DNA of 64,000 bases, taken from NCBI GenBank assembly GCA_026416455.1, contig JAOAFE010000001.1, forward strand, positions 124,001-188,000, read 5' to 3'. The notes below the pieces were generated by a model. The model searched no databases. It had not been told where the DNA came from and worked only from the letters and a program-made list of their open reading frames with translations. The stretch comes from Syntrophales bacterium (lineage in GTDB: Bacteria; Desulfobacterota; Syntrophia; Syntrophales; UBA8958). This document shows, in pieces, positions 3,361-56,367 of the stretch (within the stretch, counting starts at the first letter, position 1; each line of letters starts with the position of its first letter). A program made the translations under genes and the position numbers.

Positions 3361-4833
3361 ATGTTGAAAAAAGTACGAATCACAACCCAGGTTGTGTTTT
3401 TTCTTCTCTTTCTATGGCTTTTCTGGGAGACGAGATCTAAAGGAGGCGATGAACTGGCGTATCCCGTCAAAATCTTTCTCGATGCCGACCCCCTGATCTT
3501 TATTTTGACGTCTCTTGCCTCCATGCGTATTGATGGATTTCCCTATTTGGTGATCCCGGTCATATTGTTAACCCTTTTCTTAGGTCGCGTGTTCTGCGGC
3601 TGGGTATGCCCCTTGGGGACGCTTCATAATTTCGTCGGAATTTTTAACAAGATAAAGGTCGCATATCGTCCCGTAGGCTGGTATTGGTTGAAGTATGCCT
3701 TGTTGTTCTTTTTAGCTGTTGCGGCTCTTTTTTCCTTAAATCTTTCTGGTATCTTTGATCCTTTGAGTCTCATCATACGCTCCTTTGCCGTATCCATATA
3801 CCCTGCACTGGTGAACACGATGAGAAGTTTTTTCGGTTCAGCAGGTTTAGGTGGTGTAGCGTCCGAACCGAGACTGTTTTTTCGAGAAAGTGTATTGATC
3901 GGGGCCTTCTTTTTTCTCATCCTGTCCTTGAATTTACTGGAAAGACGTTTTTGGTGCCGTTATCTGTGCCCCCTTGGTGCTTTGCTCGGCTTACTCTCCC
4001 GCTACTCATTTTTAAGAAGAGAAATTAGCGAAGGATGTAATGCCTGCGGTCGATGTGAGGTGCTGTGTCAGGGGGGGAGGATGAAAACGGAGTGTCTGGC
4101 CTGTGGTGATTGTGACGATGCGTGCGCGAAGAGGTCTATTCACTTCCTCTTTGGCCGGCCAGTGGAGGGAGTGGAGATTGATTTAGGTCGGCGGCGGATA
4201 GTAGGTGCCGTGACGGCAGGTATAATTGTTCCGCCTGTATTGAAACTTTCGCCCGTCGGTAATCCTGCTTCAGTCGATGAGAGGCTTATCCGCCCTCCCG
4301 GGGCTTTAGAAGAACGTGAGTTTGTAAAAAGGTGCATAAAATGTGGTGAGTGCATGAAGGTCTGCATAACAAATGGCTTGCAGCCCACCTTTTTGGAGGG
4401 GGGGGTAGTGGGTATTTGGACCCCCATATTAGTGCCCAGGATAGGCTATTGCGAATATAGATGCACCCTATGTGGACAAGTGTGTCCGACTGGGGCCATC
4501 AGAAGACTTAATCTAGAGGAAAAGAAGCGTACGAAAATTGGAGTTGCCGTGATTGATCGCGGCAAATGCCTCCCTTATGCGTATGGGATTCCTTGCATCG
4601 TGTGCGAGGAGGTGTGTCCAACTCCCAAGAAGGCCATCTGGCTCGAGGTTACTGAGCTAAATTTGAGAGATGGTAAGAAGGTCATTTTGAAGAGGCCTCA
4701 CGTGGACCCTCACCTGTGTGTCGGTTGCGGTATCTGCGAGGCCAAGTGTCCAATTTTGGGTAGCCCTGCTATATACGTTATAAGTACGGGAGAGTCGAGA
4801 TCAAAAGAAAGGCAATTTTTGCTCGATAGCTAG
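3361..4833 (+). CDS. NapH/MauM-like membrane polyferredoxin
   Basis: This 490-residue protein has an N-terminal membrane part (about residues 1-220, with several hydrophobic helices) with the two NapH-type motifs FCGWVCPLG near residue 79 and CRYLCPLGALLG near 200. After these comes a chain of ferredoxin motifs: CNACGRC, CLACGDC, CIKCGECMKVC, CTLCGQVCP, CIVCEEVCP and CVGCGICEAKCP. It probably moves electrons between the quinone pool or cytoplasm and the exported DUF362 protein or ferredoxin encoded just upstream. A further hydrophobic segment near residue 290 (GAVTAGIIVPPVL) resembles an internal MauM-type leader, so the protein may be a NapH-MauM fusion. Its stop overlaps the convergent htpX stop by 4 bases. 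Confidence 0.8.
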   Translation: MLKKVRITTQVVFFLLFLWLFWETRSKGGDELAYPVKIFLDADPLIFILTSLASMRIDGFPYLVIPVILLTLFLGRVFCGWVCPLGTLHNFVGIFNKIKVAYRPVGWYWLKYALLFFLAVAALFSLNLSGIFDPLSLIIRSFAVSIYPALVNTMRSFFGSAGLGGVASEPRLFFRESVLIGAFFFLILSLNLLERRFWCRYLCPLGALLGLLSRYSFLRREISEGCNACGRCEVLCQGGRMKTECLACGDCDDACAKRSIHFLFGRPVEGVEIDLGRRRIVGAVTAGIIVPPVLKLSPVGNPASVDERLIRPPGALEEREFVKRCIKCGECMKVCITNGLQPTFLEGGVVGIWTPILVPRIGYCEYRCTLCGQVCPTGAIRRLNLEEKKRTKIGVAVIDRGKCLPYAYGIPCIVCEEVCPTPKKAIWLEVTELNLRDGKKVILKRPHVDPHLCVGCGICEAKCPILGSPAIYVISTGESRSKERQFLLDS

Positions 4834-5657
4834 TAGTACTTTTCTTTCTTCATTTTGAGAAGCTTTTCCACCCTCTTCTCAATAGGGGGATGGGTGCTAA
4901 AGAGGTTCATAACAGAGCCACCGGAAAGGGGACTGACGATAAACATATGAGCCGTTGCTGGATTGGCGTTCATGGGCCTCTTTTCGTTTACCTGTGCGAG
5001 TTTTATTAGGGCCGAGGCTAAGGCTTCTGGTTTACCCGTGATGTGGGCTGCCCCCGCGTCAGCCTCGTACTCCCTCGATCTAGAGATGGCCATCTGGATG
5101 GCGGTTGCAGCAATGGGGGCCACAATAGCGGTCGCCAAGGTGGAAATGAGTCCCCGATCATCAGAACCGAAGAAAAAGGCAAAGCGGGCAAGCATTACAA
5201 CTGCGCCCGCCAAGGTTGCCGTCATTGTCCCAATGAGCACGTCTTTGTGCTTGATATGGGAAAGTTCATGCGCCAGGACTCCTTCTAGTTCTTCCCGTGA
5301 TACAATTTCTAATATGCCCGTCGTTACGGCTACCGCGGCATGATGTTCGTCTCGACCCGTAGCAAAGGCATTGGGCGTTCTTGATGGAACGATATAGATC
5401 CGTGGTGTCGGTATCCTAGCTTTTTCGGCTAGCTCTTGAACAATTCGGTAGAGTTCCGGTGCTTGTTCGGGTGAGACCGGCTGGGCGCGATACATACTGA
5501 GAACGATGCGGTCCGAGTACCAGTAACCACCTAAATTCATAAGAGCAGAGATGATAAGGGCAATGAACACCCCTTTACCCCTGGCCGTGAGGTAACCTAC
5601 GGCCATCAAGAGCCCGGTTAGGAGGCTTAAAAGAAAAATGAATCTAACGGTATTCAT
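4830..5657 (-). CDS. htpX: Membrane zinc metalloprotease HtpX
   Basis: This is a full-length (275-residue) HtpX, the inner-membrane M48 peptidase that degrades misfolded membrane proteins. Two N-terminal hydrophobic helices come first (about residues 3-50). The zinc site HELSH lies in VLAHELSHIKHKD, and the third-ligand region is SREYEADAGAAHITG. Two further hydrophobic segments lie between these. It is a single gene convergent with the redox cluster. The upstream 168 bases contain no other gene. Confidence 0.92.
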   Translation of the reverse strand: MNTVRFIFLLSLLTGLLMAVGYLTARGKGVFIALIISALMNLGGYWYSDRIVLSMYRAQPVSPEQAPELYRIVQELAEKARIPTPRIYIVPSRTPNAFATGRDEHHAAVAVTTGILEIVSREELEGVLAHELSHIKHKDVLIGTMTATLAGAVVMLARFAFFFGSDDRGLISTLATAIVAPIAATAIQMAISRSREYEADAGAAHITGKPEALASALIKLAQVNEKRPMNANPATAHMFIVSPLSGGSVMNLFSTHPPIEKRVEKLLKMKKEKYY

Positions 5658-5774
5658 ACTTAAAATTTTAAAGACATTTGATTTTATGTCAAGGTGCGTT
5701 CTTAAAAATTTTTAGGAGTGTGCCGGGATTCAGTGAAGTTATGTTTTCCCTATATTGCTTGCCGCCATCATTTT

Positions 5775-5806
5775 ATTCTCCTTTGGCTAGTAAAGGTAAG
5801 GAGAAT
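5775..5806. repeat. Inverted repeat downstream of the radical SAM gene
   Basis: ATTCTCCTT at 5775-5783 pairs perfectly with AAGGAGAAT at 5798-5806 around a 14-base loop. It lies 21 bases past the stop of the minus-strand radical SAM gene. No clear T-run follows on either strand, so it may be a weak terminator or an mRNA-end hairpin rather than a classical intrinsic terminator. Confidence 0.4.
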
Positions 5807-5826
5807 GTTCCCTTGTAGTTACTTCT

Positions 5827-6975
5827 CTAGGTGAAAAATACACCAGGTATGGCGGTATGGCAGTGACGGCATTTGCCTTTTAAGACGTTATTGTTAAGAA
5901 TTCTGAACCCCTTTCTTTCGATTATCAATCTCTTGCAGTGATGGCAGTAAGTGTTTTCGCCCGGATGTCCGGGTACGTTACCGATGTAGACATACTTGAT
6001 ACCCGAATTGATGGCTATTTCTCGCGCCTTTTCCAATGTGCTTATCGGTGTCAAAGGGAGGTGGGTAAGCTTGAACATGGGAGAAAATCGGGTAAAGTGA
6101 AGGGGGCATTCGGAGAGGCCATTTCCGCTCAACCATTCACACATGCGTTTTATCATGTCCATGTTATCCGTCCACTCCGGGACAATGAGGTTCGTGATTT
6201 CCAGCCATACTCCTTCATTCTTTAAAATTTTTAAAGTGTTCAAAACGGGTTCCAACCTGACGCTACTCAATTTCCTGTAAATGTTATCGTCGAAACATTT
6301 AAGGTCGATATTTGCGGCATCTATCACCTTGGCTAAATATTTCAGGGGTATTTCGTTGATGTACCCAGACGATTTAATGACGTTTTTTATACCTTTGCCG
6401 CGGGCAATCTTTGCTGTATCGTACGTGTATTCGTAAAAAGTTGTCGGCTCGGAATAAGTGTAGGCAATAGATGCGCAGCGGCTAGAGGCTGACTCCTCCA
6501 CAACTTTTTCGGGTGGGAGATCTACATTGTAGGTATCGAGAGGACTAAACTGGGAAATCTGCCAGTTTTGGCAACTGAGACATCGGAGATTGCAGCCGGC
6601 AGTAGCGATGGAGAAAGAGCGGGTGCCGGGTAGAAAATGGAAAAATGGTTTTTTCTCAATTGGGTCAATGTGAACGGCGCACGGATTACCATACGCTATA
6701 GTGTAAAGTTTTCCTTCATAATTCATTCGGTTCCGGCAGAGGCCCAAGCTGTTTTCCTTGAGTACACATTCGTGGGGACATTTTCGACATTTTAAAGCAC
6801 CCGTGGATGTTTTTTCGTAGAATAGGGCTTCGCGGGAATATTTGTTGGGACCGGCGGCCAAAGCCGGGCTGACGGTGAACATAAAGATAGTATCCACGTA
6901 CGTTGCCAGGCCAGTGCCTGTAAGGCCTAAGATGCAGCATTTAAAAAAATCCCTTCTGGTTAACCCATCTTTCAT
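5827..6975 (-). CDS. amrS: AmmeMemoRadiSam system radical SAM enzyme with a Tat-like leader
   Basis: This 382-residue radical SAM protein belongs to the AmmeMemoRadiSam family. The SAM-cluster motif is CNLRCLSC (Cys128, 132, 135). Before it lies the family's Cys-rich CRKCPHECVLKENSLGLC region, and at the end a zinc-ribbon-like YCHHC...CRHCH pair. Oddly, the N-terminus reads TRRDFFK followed by a hydrophobic stretch to SPALA-AG near residue 40, a textbook twin-arginine signal with a signal peptidase site. Export of a radical SAM enzyme would be surprising because SAM and reductants are cytoplasmic. The ATG at 6975 starts 4 bases after the stop of the membrane protein gene upstream, so it is in the operon with the MEMO-AMMECR1 fusion. 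The family's reaction is not established. Confidence 0.88.
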   Translation of the reverse strand: MKDGLTRRDFFKCCILGLTGTGLATYVDTIFMFTVSPALAAGPNKYSREALFYEKTSTGALKCRKCPHECVLKENSLGLCRNRMNYEGKLYTIAYGNPCAVHIDPIEKKPFFHFLPGTRSFSIATAGCNLRCLSCQNWQISQFSPLDTYNVDLPPEKVVEESASSRCASIAYTYSEPTTFYEYTYDTAKIARGKGIKNVIKSSGYINEIPLKYLAKVIDAANIDLKCFDDNIYRKLSSVRLEPVLNTLKILKNEGVWLEITNLIVPEWTDNMDMIKRMCEWLSGNGLSECPLHFTRFSPMFKLTHLPLTPISTLEKAREIAINSGIKYVYIGNVPGHPGENTYCHHCKRLIIERKGFRILNNNVLKGKCRHCHTAIPGVFFT

Positions 6976-51224: not shown

Positions 51225-52613
51225 ATGGGAGAAGTATACGATAACTGTGGAGTTTTTGGTATTTATTCGCGCAATTCTTGTGTTTACGATATTTATAATG
51301 CTCTCGACTTCCTTCAGCATCGAGGGCAGCAATTCTGTGGCATCGCCGTTTACGCTGAAGGGGTCAAGCAGGTAACCCATCATGGAAGGGTAGGAAATGC
51401 CTTCACGGAGGCAGATTTGAATTACCTCGAGGGGGGCAGGTGGGGTATCGGTCATGTAAGTCTTTGGGAGAGGCAGCCGATGAGTTGGTCCTCCCGTATG
51501 GGAGAGATCTCCTTGGCCTTTAGCGGCAACGTAATTAATGCGACGGAAATTATCGAACAGATGAAGGCAAGAGGGGATGCCTTCTACCGAGAATATCACA
51601 CGGAGATTCTGGGAAAGATCATAATGGCCAGCGATGATATTGTTTCCGGTATCTCTCGCCTGGCGAAAATGGTGAAAGGGGCGTATTCCTTGGTCATTCT
51701 TGCTCGGGATGGGGTTTACGCTACCCGTGATGTTTACGGTTTTAGGCCTCTAATTTTGGGGAGAGACGGAAATCGATATGCCGTGAGCTCCGAGTCACGG
51801 GCGCTTCAGAACTTGGAAATGGAAGTGGTAAGAGATGTAAAACCGGGAGAAATAGTCCTGGTAAACGAAGATGGTTTTCATACCCTCAAGCAGCTTGCAT
51901 CACCCCGGAGTGCTTTTTGTGCCTTCGAATGGGCCTATACGGCAAGTATCGATTCGATCATCGAGGGGCTATATGTACAAGAGGCACGGCACCGACTGGG
52001 GGTAAGCCTTGCCGAAAGAGATCTCCAGGAAAGAGATATTGAGGCTGAAATCGTGGCTCCGGTACCCATGTCCGGCATCGGACACGCCCTAGGTTATCAT
52101 GCCAAATCGGGCCTACCCTATCAAGAGGTGTTTCTTTACAATCGTTATGCCGATCGCAGTTATACCCAGATAAATCAGATGGCCCGAGAGAAAATGGCCA
52201 AGCGGAAACTATCTGTATTAAAATATGCTGTTCAGGGCAAACGCATTGTTATCTGTGATGATTCTATCGTGCGAGGTACTCAAATCCGAGATAAAGTGAG
52301 AGAGCTGAAAAAGGCTGGGGCGAAGGAGGTTCATGTTCGTGTGGCCTGTCCACCTCTTCTTTACACCTGTGACTTTGGAGTTTCTACGAGAACGATGGAT
52401 GAACTAGTAGCCCGGCAATTTGTAGTTGATGGTAACATAGAAACGATGGAAGAATTGAGACGATTGGAGAAATGGATTGCCGATCAAATAGAAGCCGATT
52501 CGGTAAAATATAACAGTATCGAAGCCTTCGTCGGGGCCATCGGAAAAGGGAGGGATGAACTCTGTCTCAAATGCTGGGATGGCTTGGCTCCGTCTGGCCA
52601 TCTGTTAGAATAA
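51225..52613 (+). CDS. purF: Amidophosphoribosyltransferase
   Basis: PurF (462 residues) starts purine synthesis by transferring glutamine nitrogen to PRPP. The N-terminal nucleophile Cys is preceded by a short propeptide (MGEVYDN, then CGVFGIYS), so it must be cleaved. The PRPP loop is VICDDSIVRGTQ. Cys residues in AFCAFEW, ACPPLLYTC and LCLKC fit the 4Fe-4S cluster of the B. subtilis-type enzyme. Confidence 0.93.
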   Translation: MGEVYDNCGVFGIYSRNSCVYDIYNALDFLQHRGQQFCGIAVYAEGVKQVTHHGRVGNAFTEADLNYLEGGRWGIGHVSLWERQPMSWSSRMGEISLAFSGNVINATEIIEQMKARGDAFYREYHTEILGKIIMASDDIVSGISRLAKMVKGAYSLVILARDGVYATRDVYGFRPLILGRDGNRYAVSSESRALQNLEMEVVRDVKPGEIVLVNEDGFHTLKQLASPRSAFCAFEWAYTASIDSIIEGLYVQEARHRLGVSLAERDLQERDIEAEIVAPVPMSGIGHALGYHAKSGLPYQEVFLYNRYADRSYTQINQMAREKMAKRKLSVLKYAVQGKRIVICDDSIVRGTQIRDKVRELKKAGAKEVHVRVACPPLLYTCDFGVSTRTMDELVARQFVVDGNIETMEELRRLEKWIADQIEADSVKYNSIEAFVGAIGKGRDELCLKCWDGLAPSGHLLE

Positions 52614-52632
52614 AATAAAAAAGGGGTGGAGG

Positions 52633-55479
52633 ATGAAAATTCTTTGGGCAAATGTGAAAGAAAAACGGTTTTCTGCAGAGGAACTGCCGGCCGACAGGCA
52701 GATTCTGGGGGGTAGTGCGCTAATTGCTAAATTCATGACAGAGAGGGTTTCACCTGAGGTCGATCCGTTAGGTTCGGAAAATCCTTTGATAATCGCGTGC
52801 GGGCCTCTGGCTGGTACTCGAGCTCCACAATTGGGCCGCCTTTCGATTGGTGCTAAAAGTCCTATGACTAAGGGCATCAAGGAGGCGAATTCAGGTGGGC
52901 CGGCCGGTCAGATATTGGACCGCTTGGGGTTTCGGGCGATCGTTTTAGAAGGGAAGAGTGATAGCCCCTTGGGCATATACGTGGGCAAGGATCGTTGGGA
53001 GTTCTTCGATGCCCGTGATTTGTGGGGGAAGAAAACATACGAGGTCGTAAAACATATCCACGAGAGGTTTGGCCAAAAGGTAGCCGTTATATGTATTGGT
53101 TTGGCAGGAGAGAGAAAGTATAGAGGGGCGTCTATCTCGATTACCGATATATTTGGAGATCCCTCTCGAAATGCGGCACGAGGCGGATTGGGAGCGGTCA
53201 TGGGGGCCAAAGGTGTGAAGGCCATTGTCCTAGATCCGCGGGGGGCCGATCAGGTGTCCATTGCCCGCCCGGAAGAATTTCGGGCCTGCGTCCAAAAGTG
53301 GATCGATATCTTCAAACATGATGTGAGTTGTAGTTTGTTCTCCCGCTTCGGTACACCATTTGCCATTAACACGTCCGCGAGCCAGGGCACACTGCCGACG
53401 ATGAACTACCGCACTGGAAGACCGGCATATTATACGGCCGTAAGTGGCCATACGATCCAAAAAATTCTCTTTGAGCGTGGAGGAAAAATGCACGGATGTA
53501 TGCCCGGCTGTGTAATACAGTGTTCAATCATCTATCCAGACGAAAATGGCGAGAAGATATGTGGTGCTTATGAATACGAGACAATTGCCCTTTTAGGCAC
53601 TAATTTGGGAATCCTCGATAACGACGCGATTGCTCGTCTAAAATTTATGTGTGACAACTTGGGAGTCGATGCCATCGATACGGGTAGCGCTTTAGGTCTT
53701 GCGGCTGAAAAAGGTCTCATATCCTGGGGTGACGGGGAAGGGGCGATGCGACTTTTGGAAGAAATAGAGAAAGGAAGCCCCCTCGGGGAGGCATTGGGGA
53801 ACGGTGTGGTGGCCACTGCCCACTTCCTCGGTATAGACCGGATTCCGGCTTACAAAGGGCAAGCTTTACCGGCCCATGACCCCCGAGCCGTTAAAGGTAC
53901 GGGCCTCACTTATTTTACTAGCCCTATGGGAGCCGACCATACGGCTGGTCTTACCTACCGGATCCCCAAGAGTAAAGAGCGACAGTTGGAGAATTCCCTT
54001 GGGGCTCAAATACGAGCGGCTACCTGCGATGCTATGGGATACTGCATAAATGCCCTTCCCGGAGGGAGGGAGTCTATTTATTCTTATTTTGCGGAGCTGC
54101 TAAACGCAAGGTATGGCCTTAGTCTTACTCCGGATGATGTCATGGAGATCGGCAAGGAGACCCTGAGAAATCAAGTGGCCTTCAATGAAAGGGCGGAATT
54201 TTCGAAGATAGATGAAACACTTCCGAGCTTTGTAAAGGAGGAGACATTAGCACCCACGAATTCCGTATTCGATGTGCCAGAGGAGGAAGTGAGATCATTC
54301 TGGCAGCATCTTTCTGACTATCGAGAGCCGGAGAAGGTGTGGGAAATTAGAATACCCCCACTGCCGGATATCATGTTTGGCGCCGGTGTGATGAAGAACC
54401 TTGGTAATCGCATAGCCGATCTGAAAATAAGAAAGGCCTTTCTTATCACCGATTCTTTCCTCGCTCAGAGTGGGATGGTAGAGACGGTAAAAGACGCGCT
54501 CAAAAAGAAGGGAATCGAGGTGGTCGTCTTCTCAGAGGTGGAGCCCGATCCTCCAACTGATCTGGTAGAACGGGCTGGCCAGATGTATAAAGAGACTGGA
54601 TGTGAAGGTATCATCGGCTTTGGCGGGGGGAGTTCTCTAGATACGGCCAAGACAGTCGGTCTTCGGGTAAGCCATGGAGGGGACCTTCGGGAATACGAGG
54701 GTATTGTCGGAGGCAGTGGTAAAATTAAGCCCATCTTTCCCCCTATGGTGCTCATCCCCACCACGTCGGGGACGGGCAGCGAGGTGAATCCTTGCGCTGT
54801 TCTCACCGATAAAGAAAGAGATCTTAAATTCATTCTTATGAGCAATCATTTCATTCCCAAACTTGCTGTCATTGATCCATTAATCACACGAACCATGCCG
54901 CCAAAGCTGACGGTCGAATCGGGTATGGACGCCCTTGCCCATTGCATCGAAGGGTACGTATCCCTTGCCACTCCTTATCATCCATACTACGAGACCATGG
55001 CCGTCTATGGCGTCAAGCTAGTTGGGAGGAGCCTCGTCCGCGCTTACAGAAATGGAGATGATATCGCAGCCAGGACGGACATGTGTATGGCTGCCATGTG
55101 CGGAGGACTGGCTTTCTTGAAGGGACTGGGGGTCGGTCATGCCATAACTCATACCCTAGGAGCCCAATATCATTTGCCCCACGGTCGAGCGGCCATGTTC
55201 GGTCTCATGGGTTTTGTCAAAATAAATCAGCAGAAATGTCGGGAGCAGTTTCGAGATCTCGCCTTCCTACTAAACAGATCGGAAGATTTGGTAACGGCTT
55301 TGACAAAGCTCTATGAGGAATTAGACATAAAACTCAGTTTAAAGGCTTTCGGTATTCCGGAAAATGATTTAAGGAAAATTGCCTTCTTTACCTCCCGAGA
55401 TGCGGTAAACATGGCGACAGACCCGACCACGCCTTCGGAAAAAATGATCGAGCAAGTGTTGAGGGAGATGTACGATTAG
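52633..55479 (+). CDS. Fusion of aldehyde:ferredoxin oxidoreductase and iron-type alcohol dehydrogenase
   Basis: One open frame of 948 residues joins two enzymes. Residues 1 to about 555 are an aldehyde:ferredoxin oxidoreductase with a tungsto/molybdopterin site, the cluster Cys at 289, 293 and 297 (CMPGCVIQC) and probably 471 (MGYCINALPG). Residues about 572-948 are a group III iron alcohol dehydrogenase with GFGGGSSLDTAK and metal ligands Asp766, His770, His836 and His850 in normal spacing. A joint of about 20 charged residues links them with no stop or frame break. The fused protein could reduce an acid to an aldehyde with ferredoxin and then to an alcohol with NAD(P)H, or run in reverse. 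It follows purF by 19 bases, behind AAAGGGGTGGAGG, and is ended by a terminator. Confidence 0.9.
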   Translation: MKILWANVKEKRFSAEELPADRQILGGSALIAKFMTERVSPEVDPLGSENPLIIACGPLAGTRAPQLGRLSIGAKSPMTKGIKEANSGGPAGQILDRLGFRAIVLEGKSDSPLGIYVGKDRWEFFDARDLWGKKTYEVVKHIHERFGQKVAVICIGLAGERKYRGASISITDIFGDPSRNAARGGLGAVMGAKGVKAIVLDPRGADQVSIARPEEFRACVQKWIDIFKHDVSCSLFSRFGTPFAINTSASQGTLPTMNYRTGRPAYYTAVSGHTIQKILFERGGKMHGCMPGCVIQCSIIYPDENGEKICGAYEYETIALLGTNLGILDNDAIARLKFMCDNLGVDAIDTGSALGLAAEKGLISWGDGEGAMRLLEEIEKGSPLGEALGNGVVATAHFLGIDRIPAYKGQALPAHDPRAVKGTGLTYFTSPMGADHTAGLTYRIPKSKERQLENSLGAQIRAATCDAMGYCINALPGGRESIYSYFAELLNARYGLSLTPDDVMEIGKETLRNQVAFNERAEFSKIDETLPSFVKEETLAPTNSVFDVPEEEVRSFWQHLSDYREPEKVWEIRIPPLPDIMFGAGVMKNLGNRIADLKIRKAFLITDSFLAQSGMVETVKDALKKKGIEVVVFSEVEPDPPTDLVERAGQMYKETGCEGIIGFGGGSSLDTAKTVGLRVSHGGDLREYEGIVGGSGKIKPIFPPMVLIPTTSGTGSEVNPCAVLTDKERDLKFILMSNHFIPKLAVIDPLITRTMPPKLTVESGMDALAHCIEGYVSLATPYHPYYETMAVYGVKLVGRSLVRAYRNGDDIAARTDMCMAAMCGGLAFLKGLGVGHAITHTLGAQYHLPHGRAAMFGLMGFVKINQQKCREQFRDLAFLLNRSEDLVTALTKLYEELDIKLSLKAFGIPENDLRKIAFFTSRDAVNMATDPTTPSEKMIEQVLREMYD

Positions 55480-55521: not shown

Positions 55522-56367
55522 TCAAAAAGAAAAGCCGAAAGTTAAAGATCCGACGAGAAAGGATGATTCTCGATCGGAAGGTGTGAGGCTTCCTTTCAAT
55601 GCGAAGCCTTTCATTTCGTTTTTTGCCATCTTCGAAAGAGGAAAGACATAGGTCACACCAGGGGTTAGACTGATCAGGGAACTGAGTTTTATGGGTAGAC
55701 TGACTGATAGGGTGCCGTCGTGAAAGTGCTTAAATTTTTTTGTCGTCGGGAGGGCATTATCGTCAAATTCGGGATAAAAATTCTCATCCGTAGATAGTAG
55801 GTAACTTACCGAGCCCGATATTCTCAAAGATAGAAATTTGTTTAAAGCAAACTCGTGGGAAAGCCCAGCCCATAGGTACCAGTTTTTGTAGTGAGACACT
55901 TCTTTATAAACGGTAAGGGTCGGATTAAGCACGGTGTTGAAGGAAGCGGAGACAAAAATGTCTTGTGCGTCCGGCCGATCGGGGAGGTTTCTCCTTAAAG
56001 GGGCCAGACTATAATAAATATAACCCACCGTAAGATTTACCGGGGTAAAGGCCTTGGTATAGGAGAAGGTAAAGTCCGTCTCGTTCCATTCAGAGCTATA
56101 ATCGGTACCCGCCCCTTGCGCATACGGTTTCAGATCCAGATTACCCCATAGGGAGGCATTAAAACCTTTATACCCGACGGAAACTGTTGGTTGGAGTACG
56201 AGGCTGTTTCGGCTCATTTCATAACCACGCCAAATGTATTTGTTGGCTGCCGAAAGGGAAAATTGGCCGGTGGGCTTGTCTTCTCCCCACAGGAGTGATG
56301 GAAGGGCAAAAAATGTGCAAGTAATTAATAACATTAATAAATAGCGAAATTTAGTTTTTGCGTGCAT
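55522..56367 (-). CDS. TorF-family putative outer-membrane porin
   Basis: This 281-residue protein has a signal peptide ending near LLWGED and a beta-rich body that opens with SAANKYIWRGYEMSRNSLVLQPTVSVGYKGF, the mark of the TorF/gcw_chp family, and ends in SLTFGFSF with a terminal Phe. What it transports is unknown. It is a single gene; no operon partner is visible. Confidence 0.78.
   Translation of the reverse strand: MHAKTKFRYLLMLLITCTFFALPSLLWGEDKPTGQFSLSAANKYIWRGYEMSRNSLVLQPTVSVGYKGFNASLWGNLDLKPYAQGAGTDYSSEWNETDFTFSYTKAFTPVNLTVGYIYYSLAPLRRNLPDRPDAQDIFVSASFNTVLNPTLTVYKEVSHYKNWYLWAGLSHEFALNKFLSLRISGSVSYLLSTDENFYPEFDDNALPTTKKFKHFHDGTLSVSLPIKLSSLISLTPGVTYVFPLSKMAKNEMKGFALKGSLTPSDRESSFLVGSLTFGFSF

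Follow-up and report, generated by a model that had tools for sequence, protein, structure and literature searches.

The conversion of a carboxylic acid to an alcohol by an aldehyde oxidoreductase (AOR) and an alcohol dehydrogenase (ADH) is an established pathway of two separate proteins. In Clostridium autoethanogenum and Thermoanaerobacter a ferredoxin-dependent AOR takes the acid to the aldehyde and an ADH takes the aldehyde to the alcohol (PMC10816221). No other enzymes are known, according to PMC9295118, to reduce acids that are not activated by means of low-potential electron donors. Here we describe a gene in which members of the same two families form one chain. It lies in a 64,000-nucleotide stretch of a Syntrophales genome (contig JAOAFE010000001.1, positions 124,001 to 188,000; hereafter the window) and encodes a 948-residue AOR-ADH fusion at 52633..55479 on the plus strand. 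The fusion is probably a bifunctional single-chain carboxylate/aldehyde/alcohol oxidoreductase, an estimate that covers the two chemistries and leaves its substrate aside. A first-pass annotation of the DNA had read the gene as an acid:alcohol converter in one protein. This still appears to be the best reading. A second fusion, apparently of separate origin, and ADH and AOR genes that adjoin without being fused add to its strength; both are described below.

The other close comparison is AdhE. Like the fusion, it carries a C-terminal group III iron-containing ADH (Fe-ADH) behind an aldehyde-forming oxidoreductase, and the aldehyde is the shared intermediate. The N-terminal half of AdhE is a CoA-acylating aldehyde dehydrogenase, whereas that of the fusion is an AOR, so the acid need not be activated; the aldehyde dehydrogenase domain of AdhE (PF00171) has no Pfam match in the fusion. 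AdhE assembles into spirosome filaments; the structure predicted here for the fusion is that of the monomer. What the sequences and the model show is the domain order, how widely it is kept, the full set of ligands, a confidently predicted fold and the adjoining genes; activities, channelling, metal, electron carriers, substrate and direction are inferred, as would be a filament like that of AdhE.

A 2026 classification sorted 4,064 tungsten oxidoreductase (WOR) sequences into five classes, I to V, according to which subunits they have and which electron carrier they use (PMC13328260). The AOR half resembles these in its WorL domain pair and its conserved T, E and H residues. The words 'alcohol dehydrogenase' and 'fusion' are both absent from the text on those 4,064 sequences, and the literature searched held no description of an AOR-ADH fusion, although it comprised open-licence papers only, so that this absence is no proof. 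The first-pass annotation knew of no such fusion as a described enzyme, and within that literature, PMC13328260 included, the statement holds.

Domains, catalytic residues and predicted structure

The gene is a single open frame without an internal stop, as first annotated, and full-length homologues confirm its extent. Its ATG start directly follows a strong Shine–Dalgarno sequence, GGGGTGGAGG (52623..52632, plus strand, as are all features of the gene given here). Four Pfam domains follow one another, all of them scoring far above their cut-offs. The tungstopterin-binding AFOR_N domain (PF02730, residues 2-201, 52636..53235, E 2.5e-63) reaches 213.9 bits against a cut-off of 29.8, and AFOR_C (PF01314, residues 228-541, 53314..54255, E 1e-54) reaches 186.6 bits against 27. 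After a joint at residues 562-578 (54316..54366) come the N-terminal Fe-ADH domain (PF00465, residues 579-749, 54367..54879, E 3e-50) and ADH_Fe_C (PF25137, residues 760-947, 54910..55473, E 7e-40). The closest chain in the PDB is Pyrococcus furiosus AOR (1aor) for the AOR half and, by sequence, Bacillus methanolicus methanol dehydrogenase for the ADH half; among the PDB matches listed, no chain spans both.

We assigned the residues of the AOR half by aligning the fusion to 1aor and counted their conservation over 32 fusions. The cluster residues are C289-x3-C293-x3-C297 (53497..53523), three probable [4Fe-4S] ligands, and C471 as the fourth, which lies in the motif C465-D466-AMGY-C471 (54025..54045); D466 and C471 align to D489 and C494 of P. 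furiosus AOR. The full AOR domain with four likely cluster cysteines that was first annotated is thus present, with the refinement that the first cysteine is spaced one residue wider (CX3CX3C) than in classical AORs such as that of P. furiosus (CX2CX3C). The wider spacing is common among related stand-alone AORs. C289 is an arginine in a single fusion (L064:2748-5594), which is full-length and keeps the remaining ligands; the substitution may be genuine or may stem from a sequencing error.

Thr243, Glu313, Tyr427 and His448 form an active-site set that holds for most aldehyde-oxidising members (PMC13328260). The fusions keep three of these, as T241 (53353..53355, kept in 32/32), E316 (53578..53580) and H436 (53938..53940), while Tyr427 is replaced by H415 (53875..53877) in every one. 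The pterin motif D341-x4-D346 (53653..53670) corresponds to D338/D343, and across the aligned fusions the AOR positions T, E, H, D, D and C never vary. H415 is a change of the clade's active site: all 32 fusions and the five nearest stand-alone AORs have histidine at this position, and 20 of 21 other related AORs have tyrosine. The extra cysteine beside the cluster motif, C465, is specific to the fusions (32/32, against 0/5 of the nearest stand-alone AORs). The fusion's AOR, with its CX3CX3C spacing and the histidine, belongs to another subclade than the AOR of C. autoethanogenum and Thermoanaerobacter. The genome that contains the window also has moaA.

The ADH half is a full group III ADH with four metal ligands, as had been annotated. 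These ligands (D766, H770, H836 and H850) are invariant in 19 fusions, and we take their spacing to be the same as in FucO. The GGGS nucleotide motif, here GGGSSLD (664-670), is invariant across the aligned fusions. D607 is presumably the equivalent of FucO Asp39, which makes that enzyme prefer NAD(H) to NADP(H); by this analogy the ADH half probably prefers NAD(H).

This conservation bears on whether one half might be catalytically dead and retained as a scaffold or regulator. Among NCBIfam models the ADH half scores best against ErcA, whose annotation is that of a regulatory protein, and the arginine at 289 would remove a cluster ligand from one AOR half. The ErcA match reaches only half its cut-off, however, and no variation is seen among the aligned fusions at the four metal ligands, in the GGGS motif or at the T, E, H, D, D and C positions of the AOR half, so we consider a dead half very unlikely.

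The AlphaFold2 model of the whole chain, built from a 56-sequence alignment, has a pLDDT of 92.7 and a pTM of 0.90, and supersedes an earlier model from 19 close sequences that was poor at the active site. Because these values apply to the whole chain, the packing of the two halves against each other is predicted with some confidence. Foldseek gives TM scores of 0.85 to 1aor and 0.92 to ZmADH2 (3owo).

In the reaction that we propose, the N-terminal half would carry a tungsto- or molybdo-bis-pterin and one [4Fe-4S] cluster and would convert an acid that has not been activated to the aldehyde or back (acid + 2 reduced ferredoxin = aldehyde). The low-potential electrons for this step would most likely be drawn from ferredoxin. 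The C-terminal half would interconvert the same aldehyde and the primary alcohol at its iron site (aldehyde + NADH = alcohol). Both steps may also run in reverse. The reduction of the acid is expected to be uphill and would be pulled by alcohol formation; in the other direction the oxidation of the alcohol by NAD, likewise uphill, would be pulled by ferredoxin-linked aldehyde oxidation. Joining the halves would hold down the free level of a reactive and thermodynamically awkward aldehyde, much as AdhE does, though with no CoA ester, and since a low aldehyde level is needed in either direction this would explain the fusion.

A natural one-chain acid-to-alcohol enzyme, which selection has kept in dozens of species, would be for the AOR-ADH route what AdhE is for the CoA-dependent one. 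It could serve directly as a catalyst where acids are to be turned into alcohols with syngas or H2, and its structure would be a model for the passage of an unstable aldehyde between tungsten and iron sites. Further examples should be easy to find by their signature: an Fe-ADH behind AFOR domains in a single frame, with His415 and Cys465.

Homologues, selection and a second fusion

The first-pass annotation had suggested a search for other AOR-ADH fusions, and these do exist. Of 197 related genomes, 21 besides the window's own hold uninterrupted full-length copies and several more hold contig-cut or broken ones. A pattern scan with the joint region over 84,980 species genomes gave 38 loci, about 29 of which hold the whole fusion in one frame. 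The uninterrupted copies in the two sets are 49-68% identical to the window's fusion. The loci belong to Syntrophaceae and Smithellaceae (both Syntrophales), Desulfobacteraceae, Desulfatitalea and records assigned to Spirochaetota. A collection of plasmids contained AOR-like matches only and no fusion, and an Rfam scan of eight fusion loci returned a single tRNA-Sec and no molybdenum/tungsten cofactor riboswitch.

The joint could in principle be an artefact of sequencing, assembly or a frameshift that merged two adjacent genes. The assembly that contains the window is a draft, and Fe-ADH and AOR genes do adjoin each other, in the window's own genome (L110) and elsewhere (L183, L190, L191, L195 and L196). 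In the window's genome (contig C22, L110:7890-11009) an AdhE-like Fe-ADH stands next to an AOR of the classical CX2CX3C type on the same strand. These unfused same-strand pairs all run ADH first and AOR second, however, which is the opposite order to the fusion. Furthermore, the 21 relatives and about 29 collection loci carry uninterrupted copies with a conserved joint, many of them from independent studies. A sequencing error that deleted a stop between the domains, which the first-pass annotation had named as a possible refutation, is ruled out by these independent full-length homologues, and we give an artefact of any kind practically no credence.

The fusion is under purifying selection: in those close pairs that allowed a measurement, most dN/dS ratios lie at 0.04-0.2 for the AOR half and the ADH half alike. 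The ratio for the 40-residue joint alone is noisy (0.04-0.6). Distances computed from the AOR half and from the ADH half agree (r = 0.97). In the 197 relatives, all homologues of the ADH half at E <= 1e-75 lie in fusion frames or in their contig-cut or broken pieces. The fusions form one group in the AOR tree, beside the nearest stand-alone AORs, which terminate where the joint starts, at the residue equivalent to 560. One locus (L051:3561-9479) carries two tandem fusion genes, located between genes for a 4-hydroxybutyryl-CoA dehydratase and an acyl-CoA dehydrogenase.

A second and distant set of AOR-ADH fusions, of about 985 residues, surfaced when the joint region was searched against 395 genomes of the phylum. 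Two members are confirmed by Pfam (L165:7943-10894, plus strand, and L166:7438-10377, minus strand), a third comes from the joint-region search (L167, approximately 3408-6362, minus strand), and L168, L169 and L170 are contig-cut copies. Their AOR halves are 39-40% identical to that of the window and are placed among stand-alone AORs elsewhere in the tree. A single origin of both types was rejected for the AOR half by the approximately unbiased (AU) test (delta lnL 230, p = 0.0004). The tree of the ADH halves also splits the two types, yet there a single clade was not rejected (p = 0.19). Because the AU test separates the AOR halves, two origins of the AOR-ADH architecture are most likely.

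The second type is located behind genes of the DUF1302, DUF1329 and MMPL families, and in L165, L166 and L168 a gene for an AMP-binding acyl-CoA ligase lies directly 3' of the fusion. These neighbours suggest that it would act on a hydrophobic alcohol or acid. That the two enzymes are brought together repeatedly, in fusions and as adjoining genes, argues well for a link between their reactions.

Gene neighbourhoods and a candidate C4 substrate

For a possible substrate of the first type (type I, that of the window) the nearest described system is the route of Clostridium kluyveri and C. aminobutyricum, which comprises SucD, 4HbD, AbfT and AbfD. The window's genome also encodes an AbfD homologue and a close homologue of the 4-hydroxybutyrate CoA-transferases (AbfT; 3eh7, E 2e-167). 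The fusion could cover the part of this route from succinate to 4-hydroxybutyrate. SucD is CoA-dependent, and its place could be taken by the AOR half.

The neighbourhoods of the related fusions bear on this. One group of Smithellaceae has a gene for 4-hydroxybutyryl-CoA dehydratase (1u8v, E 1e-230) directly upstream of the fusion in five loci (L042, L051, L052, L053 and L055). The same clusters hold thiolase genes, and in 4/5 a 611-residue acyl-CoA dehydrogenase is encoded downstream. A second group (L040, L045, L046 and L048) has upstream genes for succinyl-CoA synthetase, glutaconyl-CoA decarboxylase A (3gf3; E 1e-224 for the match in L040/L113) and a sodium-pump decarboxylase subunit. Where a locus extends far enough downstream, the same acyl-CoA dehydrogenase is encoded there, with enoyl-CoA hydratase and succinate dehydrogenase-like genes farther on. 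As annotated by homology, the dehydratase and glutaconyl-CoA decarboxylase contexts converge on crotonyl-CoA and four-carbon (C4) acids.

In relatives that lack the fusion the dehydratase gene adjoins either an Fe-ADH (L149, L150 and L155) or a CoA-transferase (L153, L157 and L163), so an ADH beside the dehydratase is a recurring theme. The Fe-ADHs at these three loci are butanol-dehydrogenase-like and are probable 4-hydroxybutyrate dehydrogenases. The window's genome, which is 95.8% complete, has its own dehydratase gene (81% identical), in a cluster that reads thiolase, acyl-CoA dehydrogenase, dehydratase. It holds this fusion and two other AORs, and ProA is the sole protein of the aldehyde dehydrogenase family that was found in it. 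The AORs are therefore the only candidates found there for the step between succinate and succinic semialdehyde. The same genome has a further butanol-dehydrogenase-like Fe-ADH (L006), of the kind that adjoins the dehydratase elsewhere, and so the fusion need not be its sole 4-hydroxybutyrate dehydrogenase.

Because the fusion follows the dehydratase in five loci, and because of the gene content of the window's genome, we suggest, at somewhat below even confidence, that the type I clade acts on succinate, succinic semialdehyde and 4-hydroxybutyrate. In this scheme (succinate = succinic semialdehyde = 4-hydroxybutyrate) the reactions would either supply or draw on 4-hydroxybutyryl-CoA and crotonyl-CoA, and the fusion would stand in for the SucD and 4HbD pair of C. 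kluyveri. The proposal in its full form is of a CoA-independent single-chain succinate:4-hydroxybutyrate oxidoreductase, driven by ferredoxin and NADH, that in syntrophic Smithellaceae and their relatives would link succinate to crotonyl-CoA without succinyl-CoA reductase, the AOR-ADH chain having evolved at least twice. This we offer tentatively, thinking it somewhat likelier to fail in some part than to hold entire. If the C4 assignment is true, the annotation of 4-hydroxybutyrate metabolism would change in syntrophic bacteria such as this one, where no CoA-dependent succinic semialdehyde dehydrogenase was found. The first-pass annotation had spoken of alcohol metabolism or redox balancing without CoA. 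That would stand for the acid-aldehyde step and not for the surrounding pathway, as the neighbourhoods in relatives point to C4 metabolism around 4-hydroxybutyrate and crotonyl-CoA.

Several observations weigh against these proposals. The neighbourhood with the dehydratase is confined to a single genus-level group, and elsewhere, the window included, the neighbours are not conserved. The dehydratase is widespread among relatives that lack the fusion; since nearly all members of the main carrier family have dehydratases of this kind, co-occurrence of fusion and dehydratase across genomes is uninformative. ProA is the only aldehyde dehydrogenase in 13/29 carriers of the fusion and in 9/30 non-carriers, a difference that is not significant. 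The ADH half reaches no NCBIfam cut-off: its score of 268.7 bits for 4-hydroxybutyrate dehydrogenase (NF058672, cut-off 500) is on a par with that for ErcA (271.8 bits). Finally, there is the fusion (L064) that lacks the first cluster cysteine.

The unconserved neighbours fit another proposal about the substrate, one that leaves the bifunctional chemistry intact: a converter of broad specificity that serves redox balancing or aldehyde detoxification. It would use acetate, propionate, butyrate or aromatic and alicyclic acids, like the two-enzyme pathway of acetogens and Thermoanaerobacter, and characterised AORs do pair with separate ADHs on various acids (PMC10816221). The neighbouring acyl-CoA dehydrogenase, enoyl-CoA hydratase and thiolase genes would suit fatty-acid or alicyclic metabolism equally well. 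A broad range is harder to reconcile with the clade's own His415 and its extra Cys465, both kept in 32/32 fusions, and with the dehydratase that precedes five fusions. We judge it a real possibility, if not quite an even one.

A thiamine diphosphate (ThDP)-dependent enzyme, acetolactate synthase-like, is encoded downstream in the clusters of L042, L051, L052, L053, L055 and L057, and a further ThDP-like gene appears after a stand-alone AOR in L116, judged from the start of its sequence only. The fusion could thus be a dismutase or sink for an aldehyde made elsewhere, for example by a ThDP-dependent decarboxylase of the cluster, with one half oxidising the aldehyde and the other reducing it. 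This seems unlikely, as the halves would use carriers of differing potential (ferredoxin and NAD(H)) and the ThDP gene, found in that one genus-level group, does not occur in the other contexts.

In L112:916-9033 several genes around the dehydratase ortholog resemble the 4-hydroxybutyryl-CoA dehydratase/HpaB family, and many Syntrophales genomes have up to seven or more members of it.

The fusion's neighbours in the window are uninformative about the substrate; they are a gene resembling amidophosphoribosyltransferase, carB, and then genes on the opposite strand. The first of these (51225..52613, plus strand) ends 19 bp upstream of the fusion and may be co-transcribed with it; it is not conserved beside other fusions and shows no functional link to it in relatives. 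Downstream, on the minus strand (55522-56367), is a gene for a 281-residue protein that matches no Pfam family and is probably an outer-membrane barrel, and beyond it are genes that resemble P-II and an ammonium transporter.

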